Source: Azospirillum oryzae
GTDB taxonomy: Bacteria; Pseudomonadota; Alphaproteobacteria; Azospirillales; Azospirillaceae
Assembly: GCF_900177515.1 (NCBI RefSeq)
Contig: NZ_FXAK01000008.1
Coordinates: 247,501-311,500, forward strand
Length of the DNA stretch: 64,000 nt
Direction of reading: 5' to 3'
The position numbers and the translations under genes are program-made. This document shows positions 8,826-45,533 of this stretch, piece by piece. The notes beneath the pieces are model-generated. The model ran no database searches, was not told where the DNA came from, and worked only from the letters and a program-made list of their open reading frames with translations. Within the stretch, counting starts at the first letter, position 1. Every line of letters starts with the position of its first letter.

Positions 8826-8845
8826 CCTCGGCCGCGTCCATGGCA

Positions 8846-8866: not shown

Positions 8867-8878
8867 GAGCGCCGCGAC

Positions 8879-9058: not shown

Positions 9059-9071
9059 CCACTCAGCGCCC

Positions 9072-11532: not shown

Positions 11533-11545
11533 GGGGGATTGAGCG

Positions 11546-12199: not shown

Positions 12200-12234
12200 A
12201 GCCTCAAAAACACTCGCACTCGGAGGAAACACCC

Positions 12235-13044: not shown

Positions 13045-13080
13045 GTCGAACGAAGCGCAATCCCGGTGGAGGACAGGACC

Positions 13081-13845: not shown

Positions 13846-13875
13846 GGAATTTTCCTCCACCAAGGACGAGTTGCG

Positions 13876-14814: not shown

Positions 14815-14826
14815 GGCACCGCCGCC

Positions 14827-15912
14827 GTGGCCAGACCGCCCGATAACGGCAAGCCGGGGACCGTCACCCTGACGGAGGTCGCCGGCCATGCCGGGGTGTC
14901 GCGCTCCACCGTGTCGTTGGTGCTGCGCGGCAGCCCGCTGGTCGCGGCGGACACGCGGGAGCGGGTCCAGGCCGCCATGGCGGCGCTCGGCTACATCTAC
15001 AACCGCGGCGCCGCCAACCTGCGCGCCGCCCGCACCCACACGGTCGGGCTGCTGGTCTGCGAACTGAACAACCCCTTCTATGCCGAGCTGACGGCGGGGG
15101 TGGACGACGTGCTGGACACCGAAGGCTTCGTCGCCTTCATCGCCAACACCGCCGAGCAGCCGGAGCGCCAGGACCGCTTCCTGCAGCGGATGCGGGAGCA
15201 CAATGTCGACGGGGTGATCCTCTGCCCCGCCGCCGGCACGCAGCCAGAGCTGCTCGACCGGCTGGACCACTGGCGGCTGCCCTGCGTGCAGGCCCTGCGC
15301 TTCGTCTCCGATGACTTTGTCCGAGATGGGGGCCGGGACTATGCCGGGGTGGATTACCAGGCGGGCATGGAGACGGTGACCGAGCATCTCATCTCGCTGG
15401 GGCATCGCCGGATCGCCTTCGTCGGCGGGACGCTGGACCATTCCGCCTACGCGGCGCGGCATGCCGGCTTCGCCGCGGCGATGCGGCGGCACAAGCTCGC
15501 CGACGATCTGGTGCTGCGCTGCCCCCTGACCCGGCGGTCGGGTGCTGAGATGGCTGATCATCTGCCGAATCGGCCGCAGCCGCCGACGGCAGCGCTGTGC
15601 TACAACGACGTGGTGGCGCTTGGGCTGATGCTGGGGCTGGAGGCGCGCGGTCTCAGGGCCGGGCGCGATCTGGCCGTCACCGGCTTCGACGACGTACCGG
15701 AGGCCGCGCTCAGCCGGCCTGCGCTGACCACCGTCGCCACCTCCGCAAGGCAGATCGGGCAGGAAGCCGCCCGCCTGCTGCTGCGCCGCATCGCCGACCC
15801 GCAAGGCCCGCCCGAGCGGATCATCCTGCCCAGCCGGCTCGTGGTCCGCCAATCATGTGGCTCCCCTGGCGGCGCCCCCTCCCTTTCCCTCCACCACAGA
15901 GACCTGTCATGA
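14827..15912 (+). CDS. LacI/GalR family transcriptional regulator
   Basis: Effector-responsive regulator, 361 residues starting at GTG 14827. The N-terminal helix-turn-helix and hinge are complete: VTLTEVAGHAGVSRSTVSLV and then TRERVQAAMAALGYIYN. The periplasmic-binding-protein-like effector domain follows (TVGLLVCELNNPFYAELTAG, then DVAVTGFDD-type DLAVTGFDDVPEAALSRP). It lies inside the ABC/hydroxyacid dehydrogenase operon and overlaps the next gene by ATGA, so it most likely controls this operon in response to its substrate; the palindrome at 10688 is a candidate site. Confidence 0.92.
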   Translation: MARPPDNGKPGTVTLTEVAGHAGVSRSTVSLVLRGSPLVAADTRERVQAAMAALGYIYNRGAANLRAARTHTVGLLVCELNNPFYAELTAGVDDVLDTEGFVAFIANTAEQPERQDRFLQRMREHNVDGVILCPAAGTQPELLDRLDHWRLPCVQALRFVSDDFVRDGGRDYAGVDYQAGMETVTEHLISLGHRRIAFVGGTLDHSAYAARHAGFAAAMRRHKLADDLVLRCPLTRRSGAEMADHLPNRPQPPTAALCYNDVVALGLMLGLEARGLRAGRDLAVTGFDDVPEAALSRPALTTVATSARQIGQEAARLLLRRIADPQGPPERIILPSRLVVRQSCGSPGGAPSLSLHHRDLS

Positions 15913-24197: not shown

Positions 24198-25211
24198 ATG
24201 CTGTCGATCGGGGGCGACGACATGCGCCAGCTGCGCGAGCGCCGCGGCGAGAACCAGACGCAGTTCGCCGAGTGGCTGAACGCGCAGCTCGGCCGCAGCT
24301 ATACCAAGGCGCGGATCAGCCGCTGGGAAAGCGGGGCGGAGCGCATCCCGCAGCAGCTGGTCGATTTCCTGACCCGCCACAAGGCGGACGAGAAGCCGCG
24401 TTCGGCAACCTATCTGGCCGTCGCCAACCAGAAGGGCGGCGTCGGCAAGACCGCAACCGCCGTCAACCTCGCCTACGCCCTGACGGAGGGCGGCGCGCGG
24501 GTGCTGCTGATCGACTGCGATTCGCAGAGCAACGCCACCGTCCATGTCGGCATCGGCAACGCCGCCATCGTCGCCTTGGAGCAGCAGCGCAAGACACTCT
24601 ATTATGTGCTGCGCTCGGAAGAGCCGCTGACCTCGGTCATCATGCCGACGGCGGAGCGCGGGCTGGACCTCGCCCCGGCCGGGCTGTCGCTGGCCGACGC
24701 CGACGTGGAACTGGCGGCCGATTCCACCGGCGGGCTGATCCTGCGCGAGAAGCTGGACGAGGTGCGCCACGCCTATGATTTCGTGGTGATGGACTGCGCC
24801 CCCAACCTGGGGCTGGTCACCGCCAACGCGCTGTCGGCGGCGGAGCTGGTGGTGGTTCCGGTGCAGACGGAGGCGCTGGCCCTGCTGGGCGTCAAGCGGC
24901 TGGTCGACACCATCGGCCGCATCCGCCGCCGGGTGAACCCGTCCTTGCGCATCGCCGGCATCATCCCGACCATGTACAACGACCGGCTGACCCAGGACCG
25001 CGCGACCCTGCAGGAGCTGCACGAATCCTACGCCGATCAGGTGCCGGTCTTCGCGCCCATCCCGCGCGCCACCGTCTATGGCAAGGCGGCGGCGGCCGGC
25101 ATGATCACGCTGGCCGGTGATCCGAAGGCGCCGGGGGCAGAGACCTTCCGCGAGGTGGCGCGCCAGATCCGCGCCTATGCCCAGAACCGGGAGACGGCCC
25201 ATGTCGCGTAA
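24198..25211 (+). CDS. parA: ParA partition ATPase with N-terminal helix-turn-helix (type Ia)
   Basis: Walker-type ATPase that moves and positions the replicon, 337 residues. The first 70 residues form an Xre-like DNA-binding domain (QLRERRGENQTQFAEWLNAQ, ISRWESGAERIPQQLVDFL), the mark of type Ia ParA proteins that repress their own operon. The deviant Walker A is NQKGGVGKTATAVNLA, Walker A' is LLIDCDSQSNAT and Walker B is DFVVMDCAPNLG. I prefer ATG 24198 because GGGG lies 10 bases before it; ATG 24189 is nearly on top of the ribosome-binding site. Its end overlaps parB by 11 bases. Confidence 0.93.
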   Translation: MLSIGGDDMRQLRERRGENQTQFAEWLNAQLGRSYTKARISRWESGAERIPQQLVDFLTRHKADEKPRSATYLAVANQKGGVGKTATAVNLAYALTEGGARVLLIDCDSQSNATVHVGIGNAAIVALEQQRKTLYYVLRSEEPLTSVIMPTAERGLDLAPAGLSLADADVELAADSTGGLILREKLDEVRHAYDFVVMDCAPNLGLVTANALSAAELVVVPVQTEALALLGVKRLVDTIGRIRRRVNPSLRIAGIIPTMYNDRLTQDRATLQELHESYADQVPVFAPIPRATVYGKAAAAGMITLAGDPKAPGAETFREVARQIRAYAQNRETAHVA

Positions 25212-26127
25212 GTTCGAACGCAAGACGCGCGAGCTGCTGGGCACCGCGGCGGAGCCGGCGGGTGCGATGGCCGGCGGGCTGACGGTGGGCAGCGACCGGC
25301 TGTTCGGCACCTCGGCCGGGTTCCCGCATGTGGTGGAACTGGACCTCGCCCGCGTCCACCGCAACCCCGACCAGCCGCGCCGCCATTTCGACGAGGCGGA
25401 ACTGCGCAGCCTGGCATCCTCCATCGAGCGGCACGGGCTGCAGAACCCGATCCTGGTCCGCCCCCTGCCGCAGGGCGAGTATCTGCTGATCGGCGGCGAG
25501 CGCCGGGTGCGCGCGCACGAGATGCTGGGCCGCAAGACGGTCTTCGCCATCCTGACCTCCGGCGATCCGGACGAGATCGGGTTGATCGACAATGTCCAGC
25601 GCGTCGACCTGAACGCGGTGGAATATGCGGCGGCGCTGGCCCGGCTGATCGACAAGCACGGCTACACCCATGACGAGCTGGCCGCCGTGGTCGGGCGCGA
25701 CCGCACCGACGTGACCAAGCTGCTGGCGATCATGGGGCTGCCTGCGGAGATGCGGGAGGAGTATGCGACGCAGTTCGCCCATGTCTCCCGTTCCGTCATG
25801 ATCGAGATCGCCGCCGCCCCGGCGGAGCTGCACGCCCGGCTGTGGGAGCGCGCCAAGGAGGGCGCCAGCGTCAAGGCGGTGCGGCAGGCCAAGCGCGACC
25901 ATGCCAGCGGGGGCGCCGCCGGGTCTGATGCCGTTCCCCAGGACCCGGACGCCAAGCCGGATGCCAAGGAGGCCATGCGGACCCTGCAGGCCAGCGTGAA
26001 GCGTATCCTGCGCGACGTGGCGGTGGTGCGCGAGCAGCGCCGCTACCTCGACCCCGACAACCGCGACCGACTGATGCGGCTGCGGGCGGAGATCGACGCC
26101 ATCCTGGACGGGGAAGCGGGCGCCTAG
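25201..26127 (+). CDS. parB: ParB partition protein
   Basis: Centromere-binding CTPase-fold partition protein, 308 residues. The ParB/Spo0J N-terminal motifs are clear: VELDLARVHRNPDQPRRHFD, LRSLASSIERHGLQNPILV, and the GERRxR box in YLLIGGERRVRAHEML; the helix-turn-helix follows (HDELAAVVGRDRTDVTKLLAIM). C-terminal helices probably dimerise. Start ATG 25201, overlapping the end of parA, so the two are translationally coupled. Its TAG stop shares the CTAG palindrome with the stop of the convergent aldehyde dehydrogenase gene. Confidence 0.93.
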   Translation: MSRKFERKTRELLGTAAEPAGAMAGGLTVGSDRLFGTSAGFPHVVELDLARVHRNPDQPRRHFDEAELRSLASSIERHGLQNPILVRPLPQGEYLLIGGERRVRAHEMLGRKTVFAILTSGDPDEIGLIDNVQRVDLNAVEYAAALARLIDKHGYTHDELAAVVGRDRTDVTKLLAIMGLPAEMREEYATQFAHVSRSVMIEIAAAPAELHARLWERAKEGASVKAVRQAKRDHASGGAAGSDAVPQDPDAKPDAKEAMRTLQASVKRILRDVAVVREQRRYLDPDNRDRLMRLRAEIDAILDGEAGA

Positions 26128-28708: not shown

Positions 28709-28755
28709 ATCCCCCTCACCCCGACCCTCTCCCCGGGGGGGAGAGGGGGATTGAG
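28709..28755. repeat. REP-like element (copy b) overlapping the lodB-like stop
   Basis: Contains the palindrome CCCTCTCCCC-N3-GGGGAGAGGG (28725-28747) with the flank CCCCCTCACCCC that is also seen in the copies near 33.2 kb. On the minus strand it encodes the last dozen residues of the flavoprotein gene, ending PLSPPGRGSG. Confidence 0.72.
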
Positions 28756-29906
28756 AGACGCCGTTGCCAGAAGGGGCGGTCTTGCCAGCGGCGTTCCAGG
28801 CCGTACCAAGAGCGCAGATGGGCGCGGTAGGCGTCGCGGATCGGAGCGAGGCCGGCGGCGTAGCCGGACAGCGCGCCGGGATCGCCGAACAGATGACGGT
28901 GGGCGGCCTCGGCGGCGGCCAAGCCGGTGTAGAGCGCGTTGAAAATGCCCTGCGACGACAACGGGTCGAAGCCCAGCGCGGCGTCGCCGACGGCCAGCCA
29001 GTCTTCGCCGGAAGCGGGGGACAGGCTGCTGCTGTGGGCGGCGCAGAAACCGCCCCTCCCCTCCCCCTGCCCTTCCGGTTCGAAGCCGCAGGCGCGCAGC
29101 GAGGCCGCAAGCACGGAACAAGTCGACAGCCGGCGCAGCAGCGATGCCGTGTCGCGGGCATCCGCCGCGGCGGGCAGGTCGGCGTCGGTGTGGAAGGCGA
29201 CGACCCGGCGGCCCTCGGGCAATGGGGCGCTGTACCACCAGCCTTCCGGCTCCGCCTCGATCCAGGTCAGGCCGGACTGGCGGCCGGGGGCATCAAAGCC
29301 ATGGACCCAGCCGCAGACCAGCCGGTCCGATATCGCCCGCCGGGCGCCGAAGCGCTTGGCGAGCGGCGAGCCGCGTCCGCCGGCATCGACCAGCAGGCGG
29401 GCGTGGATGGGAAGGCGGCGGCCGGCGGTCTCCACCTCCAGCAGCCAGCCCTGCCCTGCCCTGTCCACCGACAGCATCTGGGCCGGGATCAGCAGGACGG
29501 CGCCGCGAGCGGCCGCCACCCGGCGCAGCCAGCCGTCGAACCGGCCGCGGTCGAGGTGCCAGCCCGGCCCGTCGAGGTCGCGCAGATTGTCGGCCTCGAC
29601 CGGCAGCGGTCCGCCCCAGACCGACCGGCCGCCATGGCAGGGGGAATGGCCTTCGGCGAGGAAGGCGTCCCACAGACCCATGTCGGTCAGCAGCCGGCGC
29701 GCCGCCGGGGCCAGCGATTCGCCGATACGGACGGCGGGACCCGCCCGCCGGTCCAGCACCAGCACCCGGTGCATCGGCGCGAGATTGAGGGCGAAGGCGG
29801 CGCCGGCGGGACCCGCCCCGACGACGACCGCATCCACCCCGACCGCACACGCCACAGCCTTGTCCGTCTCCGTCCGGTCCCTGACGGCTGCACCAACTCG
29901 GATCAC
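28716..29906 (-). CDS. LodB-like FAD-dependent oxidoreductase (cofactor maturation partner of LodA)
   Basis: Cytoplasmic flavoprotein of 396 residues related to tryptophan halogenase/geranylgeranyl reductase-type monooxygenases. FAD motif VDAVVVGAGPAGAAFALNL at the N-terminus, then GESLAPAARRLL and the second FAD motif in WLAVGDAALGFDPLSSQGIF. In Marinomonas, LodB is needed to build the tryptophylquinone cofactor of LodA. Starting at GTG 29906, it overlaps the stop of the LodA-like gene by GTGA, so the pair is translationally coupled. Its C-terminal residues derive from a REP-like palindrome, suggesting that the original stop was displaced. Confidence 0.85.
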   Translation of the reverse strand: MIRVGAAVRDRTETDKAVACAVGVDAVVVGAGPAGAAFALNLAPMHRVLVLDRRAGPAVRIGESLAPAARRLLTDMGLWDAFLAEGHSPCHGGRSVWGGPLPVEADNLRDLDGPGWHLDRGRFDGWLRRVAAARGAVLLIPAQMLSVDRAGQGWLLEVETAGRRLPIHARLLVDAGGRGSPLAKRFGARRAISDRLVCGWVHGFDAPGRQSGLTWIEAEPEGWWYSAPLPEGRRVVAFHTDADLPAAADARDTASLLRRLSTCSVLAASLRACGFEPEGQGEGRGGFCAAHSSSLSPASGEDWLAVGDAALGFDPLSSQGIFNALYTGLAAAEAAHRHLFGDPGALSGYAAGLAPIRDAYRAHLRSWYGLERRWQDRPFWQRRLSIPLSPPGRGSG

Positions 29907-32902
29907 CGCAGCCCGCGCGGGAAGCGGCGGACCTTGTCGATCCGGCTGAGGTCGACCGGCTGGGTCGCCCGCAGCCCGGCCCCGCCGCCCGACGGGGCCG
30001 GCGCCTTGGTGGACAGCGTGCGGTGGGCGGCCCGGACGGCCTTGGTGTCGACGGTGTCGTCGACGTCGGGGATCGGGATGTGCTGGTCCTCCACCTCGAT
30101 CAGCGGCGGGAACAGCTTGGCGCCTTCCGGATCGGTCGGGCCGGGATTGACCTCCACCACGCCGAGATGGTCGAAGTGATGGATCATGTTGTTGATCTGG
30201 TCGGTGTAGCTGGTGGTGCCCAGCGGCGCCACCCAGGCGGCGCGGTTGGCGAAGGCGGCCAGACGCACCTGGGCCGGCTGGGCGGCGTCCATCACGATGT
30301 CGTAGTTCTCGCGGGTCAGCACCTCGTTGGGCACGCGGGCCGGCCAGAAGGTGGGGACGTTGGGGTCATAACTTGGATCGTAGCCGGAGCGGCAGCTGCC
30401 GGTGTCGGTCTGCCATGGCACCGCCATCCAGCGGGTGATGCCGCCGGGAAGCTGGCCATAGAGCGGGCCGTTGGGGATGGTCACGGTGTCGCTGGACAGG
30501 ATGGCGCCCAGCCCCGGCTCGACCCAGCCCTTCGGCGCGTGGGCGAAGCGGAACGGCTCCATATAGAGGGTGGCAGCCCGCACCGGCCACGTCATCTCGC
30601 AGCCGGGATGGAAGGCGTCGGCAAGGCAGAAGTCGAGCGCGGCGCGGGTCAGCACGTCGCCCTGCTCGTCCAGCGGCACCTGATCGAAGTCGGTGTAGAC
30701 CGGGACCTTGCCCCAATCGTCGTCGAAATCGCCGGCCACCCACTGGTCGAGGAACTCCAGCTGGGTCTGGGTCAGCGAGGTGTACTGGCGCGGCGTCTCG
30801 GCCGGCGGGATGTTCATCGCGTCGCCATAGACCCATGGCCAGGGCGTCGGCGACCAGCTGTCCACCGCGTCATGGCGGAAGGCGTTCTTCAGCACCCGCC
30901 GGGTTTCCTGGTTGGCGAGGCTGCGGTCGCTGAGCCGCGCGATCCATTCCGGCTTGGTGAAGTCGTTGGCGGAGTTCCAGCCGAATCCGGCGGCGAAACC
31001 GGCATTGACCCATTGCAGGCCGGTCATTCGCTCGAACACCGGGTAGATGTCGTGGGTGAAGGACGGGCGGGCGGGCTTCGGCAGGGTGCCCGCCTGGATC
31101 GCCACGTCGCGCATCAGATCCCACATGGTGCGCACCGACTTGCGCTGCGGCCCGTAGTTCGGCGGAGCCACCACGATCCAGGCGGGGGTGACCGGCAACT
31201 CCATGCCGTTCAGCTTGACGATGGCATCGACCGGGCCGTCTGAGGTGTCGTCGTGCCAACCCTCGTTGTTGCCGAAGGTGATCGCCTTGGTGCCGTTGTA
31301 GGAGGAGGAGAAGCCGCGTCCGCCGGTGACCAGCAGGCGGTGGTCGCCCTCCTCGCACCACATGCGGCCGAGATAGACCCGCTCTCCCTGGTGCATGAAT
31401 TTGCCGGCGATCAGCTCGTGGCTCTGGCGGCCGTGGCCGGCGTGAATGGCATGCTCCCCGGCATCCAGCACCAGAGCCTGACGGTCGGCGACGATCGGGT
31501 TGCGCAGCGTGGTCGGGTCGGCGGAGGCCGCTTCCGGGATGTCGAGTGCCAGTTGGAAGCCGTACCAGGCCGACTTCTTGTTGGCGAGATGGACCTTCCA
31601 GGTGATGTCGGCGCCGCTGTCGGCCGCGGTCAGCTCGCGCACGATCCGGCCCATGGCGTTGACGCCATAGATGCGGAAGCGCGCCGCCTGCGGCAGAAGC
31701 CGGCCTTCGGCGTCACGGTAGGGATTCCGCGCCGGGTCGTCGCCGGCCATCAGCGGCTTCGGGTTCGGCACCTCGGGGCCGACGACATAGCCTTCCGGCG
31801 CGTTGCCGATGCGGGCGATGCCGATGGGCGGGTAGATCACCGCCTTGATGATGCAGTCGTCCTTGGGGAGCGGCGGCGCTTCGGTGCGGGGTTGGGTCGG
31901 CTGCTGAAGCGGCTGGCCGTTGGCCTGATGACGGACGTCGGCGCCGTGGTTGTAGACCACCTTGCGCACCGCGGCGATGCTGCCCTGCGGCGCCTGCTCC
32001 ACCGGCGTGCGCCAGATGTTGAAGGCCAGCTCCTGCCCGTAATCGCCCTGGCCGCGGGTGCAGACATCCTGCTTCGGCAGGATCAGCGTCGCCACCGGCT
32101 GATAGGGATACTGGTCGGTCGGCCATTCCTCCGTCGCCTTGTCCAGTGGAAAGCCGACGCTTTTCGGCACCACCTGCACCATGAAGGTGAAGCGGTAGTC
32201 ATCCTCCAGCAGCCGGTTGGCGAGGTCGGTGGCGAGGTAATTCTTGTCGTCCGTGGGCACATTGACCGCCGGATGGCCGGGCGGCGGCGTTTCCGGCACC
32301 AGCGAGTATTTGGCGTAATGGTCGGGGCCGAAGGCGAAGGGCAGGATTGCCCAGTACTGGGTGGTCAGCACGCTGCCGTCGACCTGGGCCGACATGGCGT
32401 TGAGGATGCCGTCGGTCTTCGGGTGTTTCTTGAGATAGCCGGGATAATCCTTCAGGACCGTGCCGGCATAGGTGAACTCGCACATCTCCTCCGCGTTGTC
32501 GACGAAGAAGACGGGAAAGTTCTGCATGATGAAGTCGGCGACGTCGCCGGTCTCGCCCAGCGCGTTGACGCCATCGACGCCCCAGACCTTCAGCCCGATG
32601 CCGAGCGTCGAGCCCAGATCGGGCGAGGTCGGCCCGGTGTCGCTGGAAAAGCGCATCCAGGCCGGAAGCTCGTCCCTGGCAAAGACGCCGACGCGAAGCG
32701 CCTCCGGCCGGTTGGGGTCCATCACCAGACGGCCATGGGCGGCCCCGTGCAGCTTGCGGAACACCGCGCGTTCCGCCGGCTTCTGGCCCAGCGCGATGCG
32801 CTTCATCTGGCCCATGGCGATGAACATCTCGTCCAGCCGCTGGGTGGCGTTGGTCGCGCAGTCGAAGCAGGGGGGACTCTTGTTGGGGTCTTCGGCCGTC
32901 AT
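29903..32902 (-). CDS. Catalase-like domain fused to LodA-type tryptophylquinone amino-acid oxidase
   Basis: 999 residues, two units. Residues about 30-345 resemble heme catalase-like proteins (y4iL type): LHGAAHGRLVMDPNRP with candidate distal His52/His56, and candidate proximal Tyr317 in RKVVYNHGADVRHQANG. Residues about 350-999 resemble LodA/GoxA oxidases: AVIYPPIGIARIGNAPEGY, GRMWCEEGDHRLLVTGG, AFHPGCEMTWPVR (Cys768) and RWMAVPWQTDTGSCRSGY (Trp830). LodA enzymes oxidise amino acids and release H2O2, so the fused domain may remove it. No signal peptide. I start at ATG 32902 with GGAG before it. Whether Cys768 or another residue forms the quinone cross-link needs alignment. Confidence 0.82.
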   Translation of the reverse strand: MTAEDPNKSPPCFDCATNATQRLDEMFIAMGQMKRIALGQKPAERAVFRKLHGAAHGRLVMDPNRPEALRVGVFARDELPAWMRFSSDTGPTSPDLGSTLGIGLKVWGVDGVNALGETGDVADFIMQNFPVFFVDNAEEMCEFTYAGTVLKDYPGYLKKHPKTDGILNAMSAQVDGSVLTTQYWAILPFAFGPDHYAKYSLVPETPPPGHPAVNVPTDDKNYLATDLANRLLEDDYRFTFMVQVVPKSVGFPLDKATEEWPTDQYPYQPVATLILPKQDVCTRGQGDYGQELAFNIWRTPVEQAPQGSIAAVRKVVYNHGADVRHQANGQPLQQPTQPRTEAPPLPKDDCIIKAVIYPPIGIARIGNAPEGYVVGPEVPNPKPLMAGDDPARNPYRDAEGRLLPQAARFRIYGVNAMGRIVRELTAADSGADITWKVHLANKKSAWYGFQLALDIPEAASADPTTLRNPIVADRQALVLDAGEHAIHAGHGRQSHELIAGKFMHQGERVYLGRMWCEEGDHRLLVTGGRGFSSSYNGTKAITFGNNEGWHDDTSDGPVDAIVKLNGMELPVTPAWIVVAPPNYGPQRKSVRTMWDLMRDVAIQAGTLPKPARPSFTHDIYPVFERMTGLQWVNAGFAAGFGWNSANDFTKPEWIARLSDRSLANQETRRVLKNAFRHDAVDSWSPTPWPWVYGDAMNIPPAETPRQYTSLTQTQLEFLDQWVAGDFDDDWGKVPVYTDFDQVPLDEQGDVLTRAALDFCLADAFHPGCEMTWPVRAATLYMEPFRFAHAPKGWVEPGLGAILSSDTVTIPNGPLYGQLPGGITRWMAVPWQTDTGSCRSGYDPSYDPNVPTFWPARVPNEVLTRENYDIVMDAAQPAQVRLAAFANRAAWVAPLGTTSYTDQINNMIHHFDHLGVVEVNPGPTDPEGAKLFPPLIEVEDQHIPIPDVDDTVDTKAVRAAHRTLSTKAPAPSGGGAGLRATQPVDLSRIDKVRRFPRGLR

Positions 32903-33147
32903 TCGCTCCGTCTCCTGGTTCGTCCGGCGGCACTGCCGGGGCGGGGGCATGTCGGGTGCGGGAGGTTGTTTTTGTGTGGTGATTTTCCCGTACCATGACT
33001 CGTGCTTACGCGAGCACTTCAAGGGTTTCCACCGGAAATAATCGGGAGGACGCACATTTTTGGTGGATGGGAGAGATGATGGCGGTGAGGCGTTGCCGGA
33101 GTTGAGGTAGTCTGCGGCTGTTCGTGCCGGTGATCCGGAAGTGCGGA

Positions 33148-33163
33148 TGTGGGACGTCCCACA
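33148..33163. repeat. 16-bp palindrome TGTGGGACGTCCCACA, site 2
   Basis: Identical to site 1 at 28558 and again followed by a T-rich tract (TTTTTCTTGG). It lies in the divergent region upstream of both lodA-like and matB genes, so it cannot be a simple terminator of an adjacent gene here. Confidence 0.8.
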
Positions 33164-33187
33164 TTTTTCTTGGTTGCTGCCTGTGCC

Positions 33188-33228
33188 CCCCTCCCACCCG
33201 GGGAGAGGGCCGGGGTAAGGGGGATGCA
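33188..33228 (-). repeat. REP-like element (copy d), reverse orientation
   Basis: On the minus strand it reads ATCCCCCTTACCCCGGCCC then TCTCCCCGGGTGGGAG, matching copies b and c with a few changes. It forms a head-to-head pair with copy c, 35 bases away. Confidence 0.6.
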
Positions 33229-33261
33229 CAATGGTGGATTCTCGGGTGAGGCACGCGGTGC

Positions 33262-35814: not shown

Positions 35815-35938
35815 GAGCCTGCCTTGGGGTAGGGCCAGGGTAGGGATGCAAGGATGTCCCATCGGCGGGGGCGCCCGGCCGGTGTAGGATGACGGCGAGC
35901 GGCCATCATTGTTTCGAGCCGCCGTTGGAAGCACCGCC

Positions 35939-37636
35939 ATGCCCATCGAGCCCTTCACCCTGGTCCTGTCGCTGCTTCAGCAGATGTGCGTCTATCTGGT
36001 GATCGCCTATCTGCTGAGCCGCACACCGCTGTTCCTGCCGCTGACCCATGTGACGGTGCGCTGGCCGCACAAGCTGGCCTGTTACGCGATCTTCTCGATC
36101 TTCTGCATCATGGGCACCTATTTCGGCCTGCACATCGACGACAGCATCGCCAACACCCGCGCCATCGGGGCGGTGCTGGGCGGCATCTTCGGCGGGCCGT
36201 CGGTGGGGCTGGCGGTCGGGCTGACCGGCGGGCTGCACCGCTATTCGCTGGGCGGCATGTCGGCGCTGGCCTGCGCCATCTCCACCATGGCGGAGGGGCT
36301 GATCGGCGGGCTGGTCCACCGCCACATGGTGCGCCAGGGCCGGATCGAACCGCTGTTCAACCCGCTGCGCGTCGGCGCCGTCACCTTCGTGGCGGAGGTG
36401 GTGCAGATGCTGATCATCCTGGCGGTGGCCCGGCCCTTCGAGGCGGCGGTGCATCTGGTGGAGGTGGTGGCGGCGCCGATGATCATCGCCAACACAGCAG
36501 GCGCGGCGCTGTTCATGCGCATCCTGCTGGAGCGGCGCGTGCTGGACGAGAAGCAGTCCAGCGCCTTTTCCGCCAAGGCGCTGAAGATCGCCGCGCGCTG
36601 CGACGGCGTGCTGCGCGGCGGCTTCAACAGCGAGAACAGCACCCGCGTCGCCCGCATCATCTATGAGGAGACCGGCGTCGGCGCCGTCGCCATCACCGAC
36701 CGGGAGAAGCTGCTGGCCTTCATCGGCATCGGCGACGACCACCATCTGCCGGGTACGCCGATCAGCTCAAAGCAGACGCATCAGGCCATCGCCAGCAACC
36801 AGGTCATCTATGCCGACGGCAACGAGGTGGCCTATCGCTGCTCGATCAGTCCGGGCTGCCGGCTGGGGGCGGCGCTGGTCATCCCGCTGGTGGGCGAGGA
36901 GGGCGGGGTGATCGGCACCATCAAGCTGTATGAGCCGAAGACCAAGATCTTCTCCACCATCAACCGCACGCTGGGCGAGGGCGTGGCGCGGCTGCTGTCC
37001 AACCAGATCCTGGCCGGCCGCTACGAGCAGCAGAAGGCGCTGCTGGCGCAGTCGGAGATCAAGCTGCTGCATGCTCAGGTGAACCCGCATTTCCTGTTCA
37101 ACGCGCTGAACACCATCTCCGCCGTCATCCGCAACGACCCGGAGCGGGCACGGCAGCTGGTGCAGAACCTGTCGACCTTCTTCCGCAAGAACCTGAAGCG
37201 GCCCAGCCAGATGGCGACGCTGGCCGACGAGGTCGAGCATGTCAGCGCCTATCTGCAGATCGAGCTGGCGCGCTTCACCGGCCGGCTGGCGGTGGAGATC
37301 GAGGTGCCGGACGAGCTGCGCCACGCCCGGCTGCCGGCCTTCTCGCTCCAGCCGCTGGTGGAGAATGCGATCAAGCACGGTACGGCGCAGCTTCTGGGCG
37401 ATGGGCAGGTGCGCATCGCGGCCCGGCGGGAGGGCGGCGATTTGCTGCTGTCGGTGGAGGACAATGCCGGGCTGTACGAGGCGAAGCCGGGCGGCGACGG
37501 GCTGGGGATGACCATCGTCGACCGCCGCATCCGCAACCGCTACGGTGAGGATTACGGCGTCTCGATCGCCTGCGAGCCCGATGCCTTCACCCGCGTCACT
37601 TTGCGCCTGCCCCTGGAAGAGACCGTGCCCGCATGA
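35939..37636 (+). CDS. LytS/BtsS-type sensor histidine kinase
   Basis: Membrane sensor kinase of 565 residues. N-terminal 5TM-LYT domain (about 1-185: [40 protein letters not shown]), GAF domain (200-345, [20 protein letters not shown]), His_kinase domain with the phospho-acceptor in [20 protein letters not shown], and HATPase with [14 protein letters not shown] and [13 protein letters not shown]. This is the architecture of BtsS (YehU), the E. coli pyruvate sensor, and of LytS. It overlaps the LytTR regulator gene by ATGA. Start ATG 35939. The window also contains a CstA-family transporter, the class of target regulated by BtsSR, which supports a similar role. Confidence 0.92.
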
Positions 37637-38361
37637 TGGTTCCCATGAACGTCCTGATCGTCGATGACGAGCCGCTGGCGCGGGAGGAGCTGCGCCGCAT
37701 GCTGGAGGAGGCCGCCGACATCCGCATCGTCGGCGAATGCGCCAACGCCATCGAGGCGATCGGCGCCATCAACCGGCAGGCGCCCGACGTGGTCTTCCTC
37801 GACATCCAGATGCCGCGGGTCAGCGGGCTGGAGATGCTGAGCATGCTCGATCCTGAAAGGATGCCGCGCATCGTCTTCCTGACCGCGCATGACGAGTATG
37901 CCGTCCAGGCCTTCGAGGAGCATGCCTTCGACTATCTGCTGAAGCCGGCCGATCCGGCGCGGCTGGAGAAGACCCTGCAGCGCCTGCGCCGGCAGCGCGC
38001 CCCGCAGGAGGTCGCCGTGTTGCCGGGGGCGGCGGAACTGCGCCACATCCCTTGCACCGGGGTCAACCGCATCACGCTGATGAAGCTTGCCGATGTCGAG
38101 TATGTCGTCTCCCGCCCCGCCGGCGTCTATGTGGTGGGGGAGGACGGGCAGGAGCGCTTCACCGAACTGACGCTCCACACCATCCAGGAAAAGAGCCCGC
38201 TGTTCCGCTGCCACCGCCAGCATCTGGTCAATACGGACCGCATCCGGGAAATCCGCTTCGTCGACGGCGGGCTGGCGGAAATTCAGACCAGCGGCGGCCA
38301 TGTGGTGCCGGTCAGCCGCCGCTTCCTGGGTGCGCTCAAGGAACGGCTGGGAATGGGGTGA
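37633..38361 (+). CDS. LytTR response regulator (BtsR/LytR type)
   Basis: Response regulator of 242 residues. Receiver domain with [16 protein letters not shown], phospho-acceptor Asp in [13 protein letters not shown] and Lys in YLLKPADP; C-terminal LytTR DNA-binding domain ([33 protein letters not shown]). LytTR domains bind pairs of direct repeats about 21 bp apart, and such repeats lie upstream of the YbdD-like gene (40474-40520) and cstA (43609-43658). Coupled to the kinase by a 4-base overlap. Its 3' end overlaps the convergent racemase gene by 26 bases. Confidence 0.94.
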
Positions 38362-39291: not shown

Positions 39292-40251
39292 ATGGGCAGC
39301 TTGCGGCGGTGGTGGGGGATCGTGGTCGATGCGGTCTATGGCTGGATGAACGACGACGCGATGAGCATGGCGGCGTCCATCGCCTTCTACACCATCTTCT
39401 CGCTGGCGCCGCTGGCGATCCTGGTGATCGCGCTGGCCGGGCTGGTGTTCGGCGACGAGGCGGCGCGCGGCGCGTTGGTCGACCAGCTGACCGCGCTGGT
39501 CGGGCGCGACGCCGGGCAGACCCTGCAGGACCTGATCGCGCGGGCCGGGGCGCGGGAGACCGGGATCGTCGCCAGCATTATCGGCATCGGCACCATCATC
39601 GTCGGCGCCACCACCGTCTTCGTCGAGCTGCAGACCGCACTGAACCGCATCTGGCGGGTGGCGGCGCCGCAGGAATCGACCATCACATGGCTGGTGCGGG
39701 TCCGGCTGAAGGCGCTGGCGCTGATCGGTGCCATCGGCTTCCTGCTGATCGTGTCGCTGGTGGTCAGCGCGGCGCTGGCGGCGGCCGGCCGCTGGGCCGC
39801 CGGCTATCTGCCGGCGATGCCGTCGCTGCTGTGGCTGGTCGACATGGCGACGTCCTGGGCGGTGCTGACCGGGCTGTTCGCGATGATCTACCGCATCCTG
39901 CCCGACACCTATATCCGCTGGACCGACGTCTGGCTGGGGGCGGCGGCGAACGCCTTCCTGTTCGCGGTGGGGAAGTTCCTGATCGGCTTCTACATCGCCA
40001 CCAGCGGGGTGGTGTCGGTCTATGGCGCGGCGGGGTCCTTCGTGCTGATCCTGCTGTGGGTCTATTACTCGGCGGTGATCTTCCTGTTCGGCGCGGAACT
40101 GACCCGCGCCTATTCCGAACGCAGCGGCAGCCGGGCGCGGATGCCGGGGCTGAATCCGGAGGCGGGGCCGCAAGTAGGCCCCGGGGTGGGGGAGGGGCCT
40201 ACCGTCCGCAGCAGCCGCGTCCCAGAGTCATCAGGATCTGCCGGGCCTTGA
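39292..40251 (+). CDS. YihY/virulence factor BrkB family membrane protein
   Basis: Inner-membrane protein of 319 residues with about six helices. It carries the family's hallmarks: DDAMSMAASIAFYTIFSLAP near the N-terminus, STVFVELQTALNRIW-like IVGATTVFVELQTALNRIWR in the middle, and AAGSFVLILLWVYYSAVIFL followed by GAELTRAY. Start ATG 39292 with GGGAGG upstream; ATG 39268 is possible. Function is poorly defined in the family (it was once mistaken for RNase BN). Its tail overlaps the convergent YbdD-like gene by 53 bases. Confidence 0.9.
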   Translation: MGSLRRWWGIVVDAVYGWMNDDAMSMAASIAFYTIFSLAPLAILVIALAGLVFGDEAARGALVDQLTALVGRDAGQTLQDLIARAGARETGIVASIIGIGTIIVGATTVFVELQTALNRIWRVAAPQESTITWLVRVRLKALALIGAIGFLLIVSLVVSAALAAAGRWAAGYLPAMPSLLWLVDMATSWAVLTGLFAMIYRILPDTYIRWTDVWLGAAANAFLFAVGKFLIGFYIATSGVVSVYGAAGSFVLILLWVYYSAVIFLFGAELTRAYSERSGSRARMPGLNPEAGPQVGPGVGEGPTVRSSRVPESSGSAGP

Positions 40252-40393
40252 AGGACCGCTCGTCGAGCGGTGATTCGTCCGGAGCAAGGCGCGCCTGGGC
40301 CTCGCGGTAGCGGTCGTAGGAGTCGTCGTTGAACAGGCGACGCAGGTTGGCGAGGACCTTGCGCAGGGGCGTGCGGGGGCAGGGACTGTTCAT
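40199..40393 (-). CDS. YbdD/YjiX-like small protein (partner of CstA/BtsT transporters)
   Basis: 64 residues. The pattern SYDRYREAQARLAPDESPLD then SFKARQ, with a C-terminal Cys pair (GRGCCGR), lines up with E. coli YbdD/YjiX (DYDNYVEH, PDQTPM, FFRERQ, C-terminal CC) as I remember those sequences. These proteins are encoded next to cstA and btsT, whose function they appear to support. Start ATG 40393 with AGAGG before it. Here it is separated from cstA by 3.3 kb, but both carry matching CCGCTC repeats upstream. Confidence is limited by the small size. Confidence 0.65.
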   Translation of the reverse strand: MNSPCPRTPLRKVLANLRRLFNDDSYDRYREAQARLAPDESPLDERSFKARQILMTLGRGCCGR

Positions 40394-40419: not shown

Positions 40420-40435
40420 TGTGGGACGTCCCACG
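40420..40435. repeat. Palindrome TGTGGGACGTCCCACG, site 3
   Basis: Same word as sites 1 and 2 except the last base. It lies 26 bases upstream of the YbdD-like start codon, so it would be in its 5' untranslated region or promoter. Confidence 0.75.
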
Positions 40436-40473: not shown

Positions 40474-40520
40474 GAGCGGCGGTTTGACCGATTGAGCGGC
40501 AGATTTCGGGGTTTGAGCGG
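40474..40520 (-). promoter_or_regulatory. Triple CCGCTC direct repeat upstream of the YbdD-like gene (candidate LytTR site)
   Basis: In gene orientation CCGCTC occurs with 5' ends at 40520, 40499 and 40479, spaced 21 and 20 bp, at -127, -106 and -86 relative to the start codon. The same hexamer at the same spacing and a similar distance precedes cstA. Direct repeats two helical turns apart are the known binding mode of LytTR regulators; binding by the 37633 product is inferred. Confidence 0.55.
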
Positions 40521-40544
40521 TTCGATGGTGATCGCGATGACCCG

Positions 40545-41441
40545 TCACAATGATCCCCGTGCCTCACCGACAAGCCAGTCGACGAAGCCGGCAACCAGCT
40601 TTCCCGCATCGGCCTGACGTGGAACGAGGGCGACGTACCCCGTCCTTGGAACCCGGATCTCGGGCAGCGGCGTCATCAGCCTTCCGCTGGCGACGTCGAT
40701 GTCCAGCATCGGCAACGGGCCGATCCCGATGCCCAGCCCGTCCTCCACCGCCTGACGGGTTACGAAGAAGTGATCGAATATCTGGCGGGGATGCCCTGCA
40801 AGATGCTGGAGCCCCGCCGCCTCGAGCCAGCCGGTCCAATCGCCTGGACGGGTCTCGCTTGCGAACAGGGTGTGCCCCTCGATGTCGGCGGGCTTGCGGA
40901 TCGGCCGCCGCGCGAACAGCGCCGGGCTCATGATCAGCGTATCCACATCGTCCAGCACCGGCACTATCCGATGCTGAGGCCAGACATGCTCCCGGGCGGC
41001 CCCGCGCCGGATCGCCACGTCGACGCCGCCACGCAATTCCTCCAGCACGGTCGAAACCGTCGTGACCGCCACCTCGACCTGCGGATGGTCGGCGTGATAG
41101 CGGCCGAGCCGGGGGATCAGCCAGCGCATCGCGAAGCTGGTCGGGGCGCTGACACGCAGGATGCGGCGGGCGTCGGGCCGGCCGCAGGCTTCCGCCGCGA
41201 CGGCCAGCCGGTCGAAGGAAAGGCCGACCTCGGACGCGAAGATCCGCGCCATCGGCGTCGCGACCATGCGGCGCCCGTCCTTCACGAACAGCCTCTGTCC
41301 GAGCCAGCTTTCGAGAGCGGCGATCTGCCGGCTCACCGCGCCATGGGTGAGGCCGAGTTCGGCCCCGGCTTCGGCATAGCTGCCGGTCCGGGCCGCGACC
41401 TCGAAGATGCGCAGGGCGTTTAGGGGAGGAAGGCGGCGCAT
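40545..41441 (-). CDS. LysR family regulator, GcvA-like
   Basis: 298 residues from ATG 41441 (MRRLPPLNALR, AAGGATCG upstream), the usual N-terminus of GcvA/AmpR-type LysR proteins. Helix-turn-helix ALRIFEVAARTGSYAEAGAE and LGLTHGAVSRQIAALESWLG; effector domain starts RRILRVSAPTSFAMRWLIPR. It is divergent from the MFS-SDR pair at 41603 and probably regulates it. Confidence 0.92.
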   Translation of the reverse strand: MRRLPPLNALRIFEVAARTGSYAEAGAELGLTHGAVSRQIAALESWLGQRLFVKDGRRMVATPMARIFASEVGLSFDRLAVAAEACGRPDARRILRVSAPTSFAMRWLIPRLGRYHADHPQVEVAVTTVSTVLEELRGGVDVAIRRGAAREHVWPQHRIVPVLDDVDTLIMSPALFARRPIRKPADIEGHTLFASETRPGDWTGWLEAAGLQHLAGHPRQIFDHFFVTRQAVEDGLGIGIGPLPMLDIDVASGRLMTPLPEIRVPRTGYVALVPRQADAGKLVAGFVDWLVGEARGSL

Positions 41442-41602
41442 GAGCGATCCTTGAGGGCGATCCCTGGGGGTGATCCGTGAGAAAAACGAACGGTATCCGT
41501 GATTCAAAGCATACTAGTCGATGAATTCTCACACATATAGCATGCCTTCCCGATGAGACCAGCCGGGCAATGCCTGTGGCACCTCCGGGAAAGCCATTGA
41601 AG
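41442..41602. promoter_or_regulatory. Divergent LysR/MFS promoter region
   Basis: 161 bases. AT-rich between 41480 and 41550, with GTATCCGTGATTCAAAGCATAC (a long dyad GTAT/ATAC, 41493-41514 approximately) as a possible LysR-type site. Site assignment is tentative. Confidence 0.4.
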
Positions 41603-42775
41603 ATGAATCCGAGACAGTGGTGGACAGAGAAGAAGAAAAGTTTGGCGAGCGCGTGCCTAGCCCATGCGCTGCATGATGGGTACACCGACGCCCTCTATGT
41701 CTTCCTGCCGGTATGGCAGGCGCAGTTCGGTCTTTCCTATGCGATGCTTGCCATCATCCGCGCCCTTTACTCCGGTACGATGGGAGGGCTGCAAATCCCG
41801 GCCGACCGGGCCCTTCGCGGCCTGTCGCCGCGGGCGGCGCTGATCCTGTCGACAATCCTCGCGGCGGCGGGCTTGCTGATCATGGCGTTGCCGTTGGGCT
41901 TTGCCGGCCTTTGCGTCGGCCTCGTCGTCGCCGGCATCGGATCGAGCATCCAGCACCCCTGCGGATCGATGCTCGTCACCGTCAGCTACGGCTCGGCATC
42001 GCGGCATCCGCTCGGCATCTACAATTTCTCGGGCGATCTCGGGAAAGCCGCGCTGCCGGCGCTCGTCGCGGTGCTGCTGCCTTTTCTCGGCTGGCAACCG
42101 GTGCTGGGGCTGATGGCGGGGATAGGGCTTATCGTGTCACTCGCCCTGCTGCCTCTGGCGCCGGCGGTTCCCATCGTGAGGGCCGCCAAATCGGGGACCA
42201 AGGCGGGGCAAGGTCGTGGCGGCTTCGGCATCCTGACGGTGATCGGCGCGCTCGATACGGCGACCCGCATGGGCTATCTGCTGTTTCTGCCCTTCCTCAT
42301 CCATGGTCAGGGCGGCGACACCGCGACGGTCGGACTGGCGCTGGCCCTGCTGTTCATCGGCGGCGCGCTGGGAAAGGCGACATGCGGCCTGCTGGGGGAG
42401 CGGCTGGGGGTCGTCGGCAGCGTCATGGTGACCGAAGCCGCCACCGCCGTGCTGATCGCGGCGACGCTGTTCACCTCGCTGACGCCGACGCTGGTCCTGC
42501 TGCCGCTGCTCGGGATCGTGCTCAACGGCACCTCCTCGGTGCTCTACGGCACCGTGCCGGAGCTTTCCAACGGCGATACCGGCCGGGCCTTCGCGGTCTT
42601 CTACACCAGCGTCATCGGGGCCGGCGGCTTGGCCCCGATCCTTTACGGCGCAATCGCCGACCACAGCAGCCAGACGACCGGCGTGCTGGCCTCGGCGGCG
42701 ACCGCCGCCCTGATCGTGCCGCTCGTCCTGATGCTGAGGCCCCATCTGGGCGCCGCTGTTCCCCGCCTTGCCTGA
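41603..42775 (+). CDS. MFS transporter, Fsr-like
   Basis: Inner-membrane major facilitator of 390 residues with about twelve helices. The opening LAHALHDGYTDALYVFLPVW and VAGIGSSIQHPCGSMLVTVS resemble the fosmidomycin-resistance (Fsr) branch of exporters. I start at ATG 41603 (GGGAAAG about 10 bases upstream); ATG 41570 would add 11 residues. An SDR gene follows after 30 bases, so the two form an operon; the divergent LysR gene is the likely regulator. Drug or metabolite efflux is likely, substrate unknown. Confidence 0.85.
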   Translation: MNPRQWWTEKKKSLASACLAHALHDGYTDALYVFLPVWQAQFGLSYAMLAIIRALYSGTMGGLQIPADRALRGLSPRAALILSTILAAAGLLIMALPLGFAGLCVGLVVAGIGSSIQHPCGSMLVTVSYGSASRHPLGIYNFSGDLGKAALPALVAVLLPFLGWQPVLGLMAGIGLIVSLALLPLAPAVPIVRAAKSGTKAGQGRGGFGILTVIGALDTATRMGYLLFLPFLIHGQGGDTATVGLALALLFIGGALGKATCGLLGERLGVVGSVMVTEAATAVLIAATLFTSLTPTLVLLPLLGIVLNGTSSVLYGTVPELSNGDTGRAFAVFYTSVIGAGGLAPILYGAIADHSSQTTGVLASAATAALIVPLVLMLRPHLGAAVPRLA

Positions 42776-42805
42776 CCATCCCGCCACCACTTGGAGAGTC
42801 TTGCA

Positions 42806-43567
42806 ATGACCACCGATTCCGAGGTGCCGCTGATCCTGATTACGGGCGGGGGGCGTGGCGTCGGCGCCGCGACCGCAAGGCTTGCCGCCGCCCAGGGCTA
42901 TGATGTCGCGATCAGCTTCGTCGCCGACGAGGCCGCCGCCCGCGCGGTGACGGCGGATGTCGAAGCCTTGGGGCGCCGGGCCTTGGCCGTGCGGGCCGAC
43001 AGCGCCGATCCGGCGCAGGTCGTCGCGCTGTTCGACGCAATCGACCGCGAGTTCGGCCGGATCGACGTGCTTGTCAACAACGCGGCGGTGCTCGCGCGGC
43101 AGTGCCGGACCGAGGATCTCGGCTTCGAGCGGATGCAGCGCATCTTCGCGGTCAACGCCATCGGTCCGATCCTCTGCGCCCAGCAGGCGGCGAAGCGCAT
43201 GTCGCAGCGCCACGGCGGGCGGGGCGGCGTGGTCATCAACATCTCGTCGGCAGCCGCCCGGCTCGGCAGTCCGAACGAATATGTCGACTATGCCGCCTCC
43301 AAGGGCGCGCTCGAAACCTTCACCATCGGCTTCGCCAAGGAGGTCGCGCGGGACGGCATCCGCGTCAACTGCATTCGCCCCGGCCACATCTACACCGACA
43401 TGCATGCCAGCGGCGGGGAGCCGGGGCGGGTGGACCGTGTCAAGGACACGATCCCGATGGGACGGGGCGGCCAGCCCGAGGAGGTCGCGCGGGCGATCCT
43501 GTGGCTGGCGAGCGCCGAGGCCTCCTTCATCACCGGCACCTTCCTGGACGTCACCGGCGGCAAGTGA
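42806..43567 (+). CDS. SDR family oxidoreductase
   Basis: Classical short-chain dehydrogenase/reductase, 253 residues. Cofactor motif LITGGGRGVGAATARLAA, NNAAV motif in IDVLVNNAAVLA, catalytic Ser in VINISSAAARLG and YxxxK in VDYAASKGALE, then PGHIYTDMH. Wording is that of glucose-1-dehydrogenase/3-oxoacyl-ACP reductase-like enzymes using NADP(H). Start ATG 42806 with GGAGAG upstream. Follows the MFS gene in the same operon. Confidence 0.92.
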   Translation: MTTDSEVPLILITGGGRGVGAATARLAAAQGYDVAISFVADEAAARAVTADVEALGRRALAVRADSADPAQVVALFDAIDREFGRIDVLVNNAAVLARQCRTEDLGFERMQRIFAVNAIGPILCAQQAAKRMSQRHGGRGGVVINISSAAARLGSPNEYVDYAASKGALETFTIGFAKEVARDGIRVNCIRPGHIYTDMHASGGEPGRVDRVKDTIPMGRGGQPEEVARAILWLASAEASFITGTFLDVTGGK

Positions 43568-43608
43568 GCGTGGGCGGGGCGGCGGCATTTGACGGGGGCT
43601 TGAGCGCC

Positions 43609-43658
43609 GCCGCTCGCCCCCCGCCGGCTGCCGCTCGGCACGTCCCGGCTGCCGCTCG
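43609..43658 (+). promoter_or_regulatory. Triple GCCGCTCG direct repeat upstream of cstA (candidate LytTR site)
   Basis: GCCGCTCG at 43609-43616, 43630-43637 and 43651-43658, exactly 21 bp apart, at -119, -98 and -77 from the cstA start. The last two repeats are extended to the 14-mer CCGGCTGCCGCTCG. Same hexamer CCGCTC, spacing and orientation as upstream of the YbdD-like gene. LytTR regulators bind such helically phased direct repeats; the link to the regulator at 37633 is inference. Confidence 0.6.
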
Positions 43659-43727: not shown

Positions 43728-45533
43728 ATGGATCACGCCCTAACCTTTGTGATCGCGACACTCTGCATTCTTGCGCTCTGCTACCGCTTCTACGGCGTGT
43801 TCTTCGTGCGCAAGGTTCTCCGTGCCGACGATTCGGAAGTCACCCCGTCCCACATGCTGGCGGACGGCCGAAACTATGTACCCACCAAGAAGTGGGTGAA
43901 TGCCGGGCAGCATTTCGCCGCCATCGCCGCCGCCGGCCCGCTGGTCGGTCCGGTGCTGGCCGCCCAGTTCGGCTATCTGCCGAGCTTCCTGTGGCTGCTG
44001 ATCGGCTGCGTCATCGGCGGCGCGGTGCATGACACCGTCGTGCTGTTCGCCTCGATGAAGCACAAGGGACAGTCGCTGTCCGAGGTCGCCAAGGCCGAAC
44101 TCGGCCCGGTGGCCGGCTGGTGCACCGGTCTGGCGATGCTGTTCATCATCACCATCACCATGGCCGGCCTGTCGATGGTCGTCGTCCATGCGCTGGAACG
44201 CAACGCCTGGGGCGCCTTCGCGGTGTTCATGACGATCCCGATCGCCATCGCGCTGGGCCTCTACGAGAAGATCACCGGCTCGTCCAAGGGCGCCACCCAG
44301 GTCGGCATCGCCGCCATCGCCGCGTCCGTCTTCGCCGGCCCCTACATCCAGGGCACGCTGCTGGGCGAATGGCTGACCCTGCATGCCGAGACGGTCGCCG
44401 TCATCCTGCCGGTCTATGCCTTCTTCGCCACGGCGTTGCCGGTGTGGCTGCTGCTGACCCCGCGCGGCTATCTGTCCAGCTTCATGAAGGTCGGCGTGTT
44501 CGGCGCGCTGGTGGTCGGCGTCGTCTTCATCAACCCGGAGATCCGCTTCCCCGCCCTGACCGACTTCATCCATGGCGGCGGCCCGGTGCTGAACGGCCCG
44601 GTCTGGCCCTTCATCTCGATCACCATCGCCTGCGGCGCCATCTCCGGCTTCCATGCCTTCATCGGGTCGGGCACCACGCCCAAGCTGATCGACAAGTGGA
44701 GCGACATCCGTCCGGTGGCCTTCGGCGGCATGCTGGCGGAATGCCTGGTCGGCGTCATGGCGCTGATCGCCGCGACCTCGCTGCATCCGGCCGATTACTT
44801 TGCCATCAACTCCGCGCCGGCCGCCTTCAAGGCCCTGGGCATGGATGTGGTGGACCTGCCGCGGCTGAGCCAGGAAATCGGTCTCGACCTCTATGGCCGG
44901 ACCGGCGGTGCGGTGACCCTGGCGGTCGGCATGACCGAGATCTTCACCCGCGTGCCGTGGTTCAACAGCCTCGCCTCCTACTTCTTCCAGTTCGTCGTGA
45001 TGTTCGAGGCGGTGTTCATCCTGACCGCCGTGGACAGCGGCACCCGCGTCGCCCGTTACCTGATCCAGGACCTGCTGGGCGACCTCTATGCCCCGATGAA
45101 GCGGCTGGACTGGGTCCCCGGTTCGATCATCGCCAGCGTCATCGCCTGCGTGGCCTGGGGGTATCTGCTGACGTCGGGCGACATCAACTCGGTCTGGGCC
45201 CTGTTCGGCGTGTCGAACCAGCTGATGGCCTCGGTCGGCCTCATCATCGGCGCCACCATCATCCTGCGGCTGGCCCAGAAGCGGATCTACATGCTGACCT
45301 GCCTGGTCCCGCTGGCCTACCTGTTCGTCACGGTGAACGTCGCCGGCTACTGGATGATCGCCAACGTCTATCTGAACAAGGCGGCCAAGGGCTACAACCC
45401 CTTCAACGCCGGCATCTCGATCATCATGCTGGTGCTGGGCTTCGTCATCCTGATCGCCGCGTTCCGGAAGTGGAAGGAACTGCTGCAGGCCCGCGCCGTC
45501 GAGGTTCCGATGGTCGCCACCCCGGCCGAATGA
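43728..45533 (+). CDS. cstA: Carbon starvation protein CstA family transporter (peptide/pyruvate uptake)
   Basis: Inner-membrane transporter of 601 residues with about 16 helices. Family hallmarks: HFAAIAAAGPLVGPVLAAQF, GAVHDTVVLFASMKHKGQSL, GFHAFIGSGTTPKLIDKWSD and MFEAVFILTAVDSGTRVARY. E. coli members are CstA (peptides, pyruvate; about 700 residues) and BtsT/YjiY (pyruvate), so this is a shorter member. GGAGAG precedes the ATG. Upstream lie three 21-bp-spaced repeats that may be bound by the LytTR regulator at 37633; a perfect hairpin terminator follows. A yjiX-like partner is at 40199 rather than adjacent. Confidence 0.93.
   Translation: MDHALTFVIATLCILALCYRFYGVFFVRKVLRADDSEVTPSHMLADGRNYVPTKKWVNAGQHFAAIAAAGPLVGPVLAAQFGYLPSFLWLLIGCVIGGAVHDTVVLFASMKHKGQSLSEVAKAELGPVAGWCTGLAMLFIITITMAGLSMVVVHALERNAWGAFAVFMTIPIAIALGLYEKITGSSKGATQVGIAAIAASVFAGPYIQGTLLGEWLTLHAETVAVILPVYAFFATALPVWLLLTPRGYLSSFMKVGVFGALVVGVVFINPEIRFPALTDFIHGGGPVLNGPVWPFISITIACGAISGFHAFIGSGTTPKLIDKWSDIRPVAFGGMLAECLVGVMALIAATSLHPADYFAINSAPAAFKALGMDVVDLPRLSQEIGLDLYGRTGGAVTLAVGMTEIFTRVPWFNSLASYFFQFVVMFEAVFILTAVDSGTRVARYLIQDLLGDLYAPMKRLDWVPGSIIASVIACVAWGYLLTSGDINSVWALFGVSNQLMASVGLIIGATIILRLAQKRIYMLTCLVPLAYLFVTVNVAGYWMIANVYLNKAAKGYNPFNAGISIIMLVLGFVILIAAFRKWKELLQARAVEVPMVATPAE

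Follow-up and report, generated by a model that had tools for sequence, protein, structure and literature searches.

The locus examined here raises the question of which regulator reads a set of CCGCTC repeats that stand, three at each gene, upstream of cstA, a gene for a CstA-family transporter, and of a small ybdD/yjiX-like gene, and whether the two genes form one pyruvate uptake regulon. It lies in a 64-kb stretch (the window, meaning the whole stretch of DNA that was analysed) of the 7.67-Mb genome of Azospirillum oryzae, and the window also encodes a LytS/LytR pair. A preliminary description of the window had proposed that this pair is BtsSR-like and controls both genes. Our analysis did reveal that its biochemical inference is largely right and well supported by the sequences: the locus is very probably a BtsSR pyruvate-uptake regulon, in which BtsR binds and activates cstA and ybdD via three-box arrays. 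Specifically, external pyruvate would be sensed by the membrane pocket of BtsS, BtsS would phosphorylate BtsR, and phosphorylated BtsR would occupy three helically phased CCGCTC boxes 5′ of cstA and, separately, three boxes 5′ of ybdD, activating both genes. CstA would serve as the pyruvate symporter and YbdD as its accessory protein. Family identities, pocket residues, the boxes with their conservation and the gene layout of relatives are read from the sequences; that BtsR binds and activates, that pyruvate is both ligand and substrate, and that YbdD acts jointly with CstA is what we infer.

35909 to 37636, plus strand: btsS, LytS-type predicted pyruvate sensor (Pfam domains 5TM-5TMR_LYT, GAF and His_kinase)
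37633 to 38361, plus strand: btsR, response regulator with receiver and LytTR domains (NCBIfam equivalog NF008677)
40199 to 40393, minus strand: ybdD/yjiX-like gene, 64 residues (PF04328 below threshold, assigned through intermediates)
40515-40520, 40494-40499 and 40474-40479, minus strand: three ybdD boxes CCGCTC, at -127, -106 and -86 from the ybdD ATG
40521 to 43590: LysR-MFS-SDR cassette between the two arrays (Pfam)
43610, 43631 and 43652 (array 43610 to 43657), plus strand: three cstA boxes CCGCTC, at -118, -97 and -76 from the cstA ATG
43728 to 45533, plus strand: cstA, CstA-family transporter, 601 residues, predicted pyruvate symporter (PF02554)

Sensor and response regulator

The gene coordinates first proposed for LytS, the LytTR protein, the 64-residue open reading frame and cstA all hold, with the btsS start probably being the ATG at 35939 rather than at 35909. 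By sequence, the LytS/LytR pair is BtsS/BtsR. The regulator scores 372.9 bits on the BtsR equivalog model (cut-off 246) and 67.4 bits on the LytTR domain PF04397. It shares 146 of 238 aligned residues with E. coli BtsR, and its D54 aligns to the phospho-acceptor aspartate D57 of that protein. Two further LytTR proteins were found in the genome; one (L022) reaches 37.7 bits on the BtsR model and the other (L024) has no receiver domain evident by eye. When BtsR was searched against the genus, the next best among the listed matches in its own genome had an E value of 2e-13. The sensor and E. coli BtsS have 386 of 561 residues in common (69%), including all five of R72, R99, C110, S113 and the phosphorylated histidine H382, which have been assigned to pyruvate binding (the first four) and phosphorylation in E. 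coli BtsS (PMC10653868).

Box arrays in the window and the genome

All six CCGCTC boxes claimed for the window are present at the positions given, at 20-21 bp spacing, each set in the orientation of its gene and at similar distances from the two start codons. Single hexamers are not enriched (78 in the window, 108 expected), nor are exact pairs at a period of 20-21 bp, with 26 in the genome against 47 for the same pattern read backwards, which served as control. Overlapping pairs, i.e. triples, occur among these 26 at two places only, upstream of ybdD and upstream of cstA, and about 0.03 triples would be expected in the genome from the pair count. The remaining 22 pairs lie outside the four of the window; 16 of them were examined and each falls within some open frame 106 codons long or longer, which is weak evidence in GC-rich DNA. 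Direct repeats are established binding sites of LytTR regulators (PMC4064291).

Transporter and small partner protein

CstA scores 589.7 bits on PF02554 (threshold 27), and no second CstA was found in the genome. It reaches 450.7 bits on the E. coli CstA equivalog PRK15015 (NCBIfam), below the cut-off of 1188, and is by this measure a CstA-family protein of a subtype other than E. coli CstA; 252 of 596 aligned residues are identical to E. coli BtsT. No solved structure matching CstA was found.

The 64-residue protein had been placed in the YbdD/YjiX family, an assignment that holds through intermediates and not by its own profile score (see below); it is absent from the matches of a genome-wide PF04328 search. 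Its orthologue in genome G031 (58% identical) scores 28.8 bits, two proteins encoded 3′ of a long cstA score 57.1 (L136) and 56.2 bits (L146), and E. coli YjiX scores 94.9 bits. The protein aligns with those encoded after the long cstA at L136, L145 and L146, and Y29, F48, C61 and C62 are invariant across eight aligned proteins. We accept it as a divergent YbdD/YjiX. Deletion of ybdD impairs pyruvate uptake in E. coli (PMC5847655).

Conservation in Azospirillum and beyond

We compared 45 Azospirillum genomes (labelled G). This CstA occurs in 37 of them (89-100% identical) and BtsR1, the counterpart of the window's regulator, in 38 (72-100% identical). Both are present in 37 genomes, BtsR1 without CstA in one (G028), CstA without BtsR1 in none, and neither in seven, one of which (G026) carries only the paralogue BtsSR2 described below. 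In G028 the BtsSR1 region (8327-13115 of locus L123) is without the short CstA, and a gene that looks by eye like pyruvate formate-lyase comes after the pair.

Alignment of the upstream regions confirmed that the repeats are conserved among relatives. The cstA triple is kept in 35 of 37 genomes (exceptions G035 and G031), with spacings of 21/20 in 19 genomes and 21/21 in 16. Its 18 box columns are on average 98.6% conserved (12 invariant) and its 30 spacer columns 71.8% (2 invariant), averages that are uncorrected for relatedness. The ybdD genes of the genus (n=18) carry a triple in 12 cases, a pair in four and neither in two (G034 and G044). Across 41 stretches, to which the window contributed 20 kb and 40 loci the rest, triples were found at cstA, at ybdD, in the ybdD-cstA region of G031 and at the BtsSR paralogue of G026, and nowhere else. 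Four genomes (G001, G007, G014 and G027) have the cstA triple though btsR lies outside the stretch examined around cstA.

The scan was extended to loci with organism names, for which the best 80 of 161 were taken (18 of them Azospirillum). Triples were found at 48 loci, a pair only at 25 and neither at seven; among 4000 dinucleotide-shuffled upstream regions there were no triples and five pairs. Counted by genus, with loci lacking a genus name left out, 15 of 23 genera have a triple and 21 a pair or better. Eight further triples lie outside cstA promoters, and each belongs to the ybdD region of an Azospirillum locus. The distances from array to gene are similar across three classes, and BtsR was found within the examined stretch at 56 of the 80 loci, spread over all three. 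At the long CstA paralogue the triple was absent from all 11 loci examined.

Arrangement of ybdD and cstA in relatives

The regulon had been called scattered and unlinked, a wording that has to be given up: a stretch of 10 kb holds all of its parts in the window, and five relatives (G018, G020, G021, G034 and G036) have ybdD and cstA head to head, 247-265 bp apart. Two of these, G020 and G021, have both triples complete and back to back, meeting in GAGCGGCGCCGCTC. When the window is compared with the undivided region of G020, its ybdD side is homologous over positions 1-127, up to the outer ybdD box. Its cstA side aligns locally from position 103 onward, and some 13-25 bp are therefore found on both sides. 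Homology on the ybdD side also ends at position 127 in six further genomes (G033, G024, G022, G030, G013 and G029), whose inserts vary in length or content, and runs further in G032 (to 137), G044 (to 147) and G040 (to 221). Ten genomes were aligned on the cstA side; there the homology starts between positions 93 and 124, which is 6-37 bp beyond the outer cstA box.

Whether the cassette was gained or lost, homology reaches the outer boxes or goes beyond them, and therefore all three boxes appear to count. Where a cassette divides the region, homology stops at the outer boxes or slightly beyond, and E. coli btsT too has a third, upstream box; both observations point to an operator made up of three boxes. 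In a tree of cstA the divided and undivided layouts are intermixed, the forks are weak and 10 of the 34 inner branches are open; the cassette may have been inserted in the lineage of the window or lost from its undivided relatives. In the window lineage the cassette lies between the arrays and each gene retains its three boxes; YbdD is predicted to be induced along with the transporter while forming its own unit.

In the ybdD-cstA regions of two genomes (L093 of G040 and L101 of G044) the insert lies between repeated copies of the operator region that have partly decayed. These inserts look as though the intergenic region had been duplicated.

Alternative explanations

Chance was tried as an explanation of the repeats and rejected on the genome triple count, the shuffled controls and the conservation of boxes over spacers. 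That they are accidental or functionless GC-rich tandem sequence would fit the GC-rich region and the lack of enrichment of CCGCTC hexamers and pairs, and yet exact triples occur in the genome at cstA and ybdD only, none arose in the shuffled regions, and array distances are alike in three classes, which leaves this reading with a negligible probability. It is very unlikely that the boxes are operators of another regulator, either another LytTR protein or the local LysR. There are indeed three LytTR proteins in the genome, and the LysR gene adjoins the ybdD array. Against this stand the low score of L022 on the BtsR model and the lack of an evident receiver in L024, the presence of the cstA triple without the LysR cassette in all five undivided genomes, and the occurrence of like boxes at E. 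coli btsT and at sdaC beside BtsSR paralogues.

A further possibility is that the ybdD array acts on cstA only, in an auxiliary or looping role, with ybdD itself being no target. The sharing of one region of about 250 bp by both genes in five relatives, the gaps in the ybdD arrays of the genus and a predicted parS between the ybdD array and the start codon would agree with this. In the window, however, the array remains next to ybdD, 3 kb away from cstA, and it resembles the cstA array in orientation and distance to the ATG; we consider this possibility very unlikely.

Several observations weigh against control of cstA and ybdD by BtsR as proposed here. The window's YbdD scores 20.8 bits on PF04328, under the Pfam cut-off of 25, and six of the 18 ybdD genes lack a complete triple. 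A ybdD gene was found near cstA in just 18 of 37 genus genomes and at 11 of the 80 named loci, and is therefore not an obligate neighbour. Two of nine compared BtsS positions differ from E. coli (K26 to R and R131 to Q). G028 has BtsSR1 without this CstA, and no array lies within the 19 kb examined there. Seven of the 80 named loci are without even a pair (L165 and L167, both Telmatospirillum, and L190, L194, L214, L218 and L222); six of these have BtsR in the stretch examined, and the boxes there have therefore either diverged or another site is used. Finally, E. coli cstA is reported to lie outside BtsR control, with only its paralogue BtsT being controlled (PMC7730263). The functional counterpart of the window's cstA would therefore be btsT.

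A second BtsSR pair beside serine genes

Ten genomes of the genus carry a second BtsSR pair, with BtsR 64-68% identical. In nine of the ten it lies near sdaC-sdaA, divergently in eight and on the same strand in G028; the serine genes were identified by TIGR00814 and TIGR00720 above cut-off in G026 and by tblastn in the other genomes. In G040 no match to sdaC or sdaA was found in the 13.5 kb examined around the pair. Two to four tandem CCGCTC boxes at 20 bp stand upstream of sdaC in all nine sdaC-linked genomes. BtsS-like sensors are patchily distributed: a BtsS2 query matched, at E ≤ 1e-100, only the genome of the window among 240 genomes across the class.

L124 (G026) 9273-14931, also L127 and L129-L135: second BtsSR with sdaC-sdaA and tandem CCGCTC boxes

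All ten second sensors have R72 replaced by P, C110 by A and S113 by G or D, and keep R99. All four residues are kept in every BtsS1 row that covers them (34 or 35 rows). Among 47 named BtsS relatives R72, R99 and C110 are kept, and position 113 is S in 41 and A in six. L-serine is reported not to compete with pyruvate for binding to E. coli BtsS (PMC5431176). Because of the altered pocket and this lack of competition, a change of ligand in the second sensor is a fair prediction, not a result. Tentatively, and with slightly less than an even chance of being right, we propose that the duplicated BtsSR with its changed pocket controls sdaC-sdaA by the same boxes and has acquired a different ligand, which might be serine or an amino acid related to it. 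If true, the controlled step would be serine uptake plus deamination of serine to pyruvate, and the BtsSR family would be wider and evolvable, its sensor ligand having changed with the DNA code unchanged. The array offers a searchable signature of BtsSR targets and has already led to this altered-pocket paralogue beside serine genes.

A probable parS in the ybdD leader

The ybdD leader contains a palindrome between array and start codon.

40422 to 40433: palindrome TGGGACGTCCCA, predicted parS
about 24588-26109: parA and parB

The genome has three copies of TGGGACGTCCCA, each of them inside the window (28560, 33150 and 40422), against one for the backwards control. GTGGGACGTCCCAC is present in 26 of the 45 Azospirillum genomes, with a ParB-like open reading frame, recognised by eye, beside it at 7 of 10 loci examined. 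Because of these neighbours, and because the window has parA and parB, we read TGGGACGTCCCA as a probable parS; an earlier reading as an operator of another regulator or a terminator was replaced on the same grounds. Several points weigh against parS, namely the single hit of the backwards control, the lack of enrichment of matches with up to two mismatches in the window (5 found, 3.97 expected), the 19 of 45 genomes without the palindrome, and the imperfect leader copy in some relatives (G018, G020 and G034). The copies at 28560 and 33150 may be a terminator. A LodA-type oxidase gene (LodA_N and LodA_C domains) and an FAD-dependent gene that is LodB-like by analogy together take up 28716-33229 on the minus strand, between two predicted parS copies.

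Comparison with known systems

Titles and abstracts on BtsR in Azospirillum, on BtsSR or carbon starvation proteins in Alphaproteobacteria and on LytTR regulators with serine or sdaC, a scope that leaves most subscription literature outside, did not yield a description of the present arrangement. The E. coli pair YpdA/YpdB with its target yhjX (PyrSR) is likewise a pyruvate-responsive LytS/LytTR pair (PMC5552118). Its target is an MFS protein, however, and the equivalog found in the window is BtsR. E. coli CstA-YbdD, a constitutive pyruvate importer, belongs to the same two protein families, and YbdD is reported to be required there for import (PMC5847655).

The closest likeness is to E. coli BtsS/BtsR and btsT-yjiX (formerly YehU/YehT and yjiY), with a homologous sensor and regulator, kept pocket residues, a CstA-family target, a YbdD-family partner and CC(A/G)CT(C/T) boxes at 20-21 bp. 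The resemblance of the boxes to those of btsT was borne out by its promoter (L025 9463-9417, minus strand), which reads CCGCTC at -183, CCGCTT at -163 and CCACTC at -142, with periods of 20 and 21 bp. The CCGCTC at -183 is a third, upstream box ahead of two downstream ones, and the published site reportedly comprises just those two. The E. coli BtsR consensus that Kraxenberger described in 2012 reportedly reads ACC(G/A)CT(C/T)A with a 13-bp spacer. The analogy to btsT-yjiX drawn in the preliminary description calls for caution over gene order: in E. coli, yjiX comes after btsT and shares its strand, whereas ybdD in the window has the opposite orientation and forms a separate unit with three boxes of its own. 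Unlike in E. coli, sensor and regulator share one 10-kb cluster with their targets, and the CstA is a shorter, 601-residue type. The boxes seen at E. coli btsT are now extended to alpha- and betaproteobacteria.

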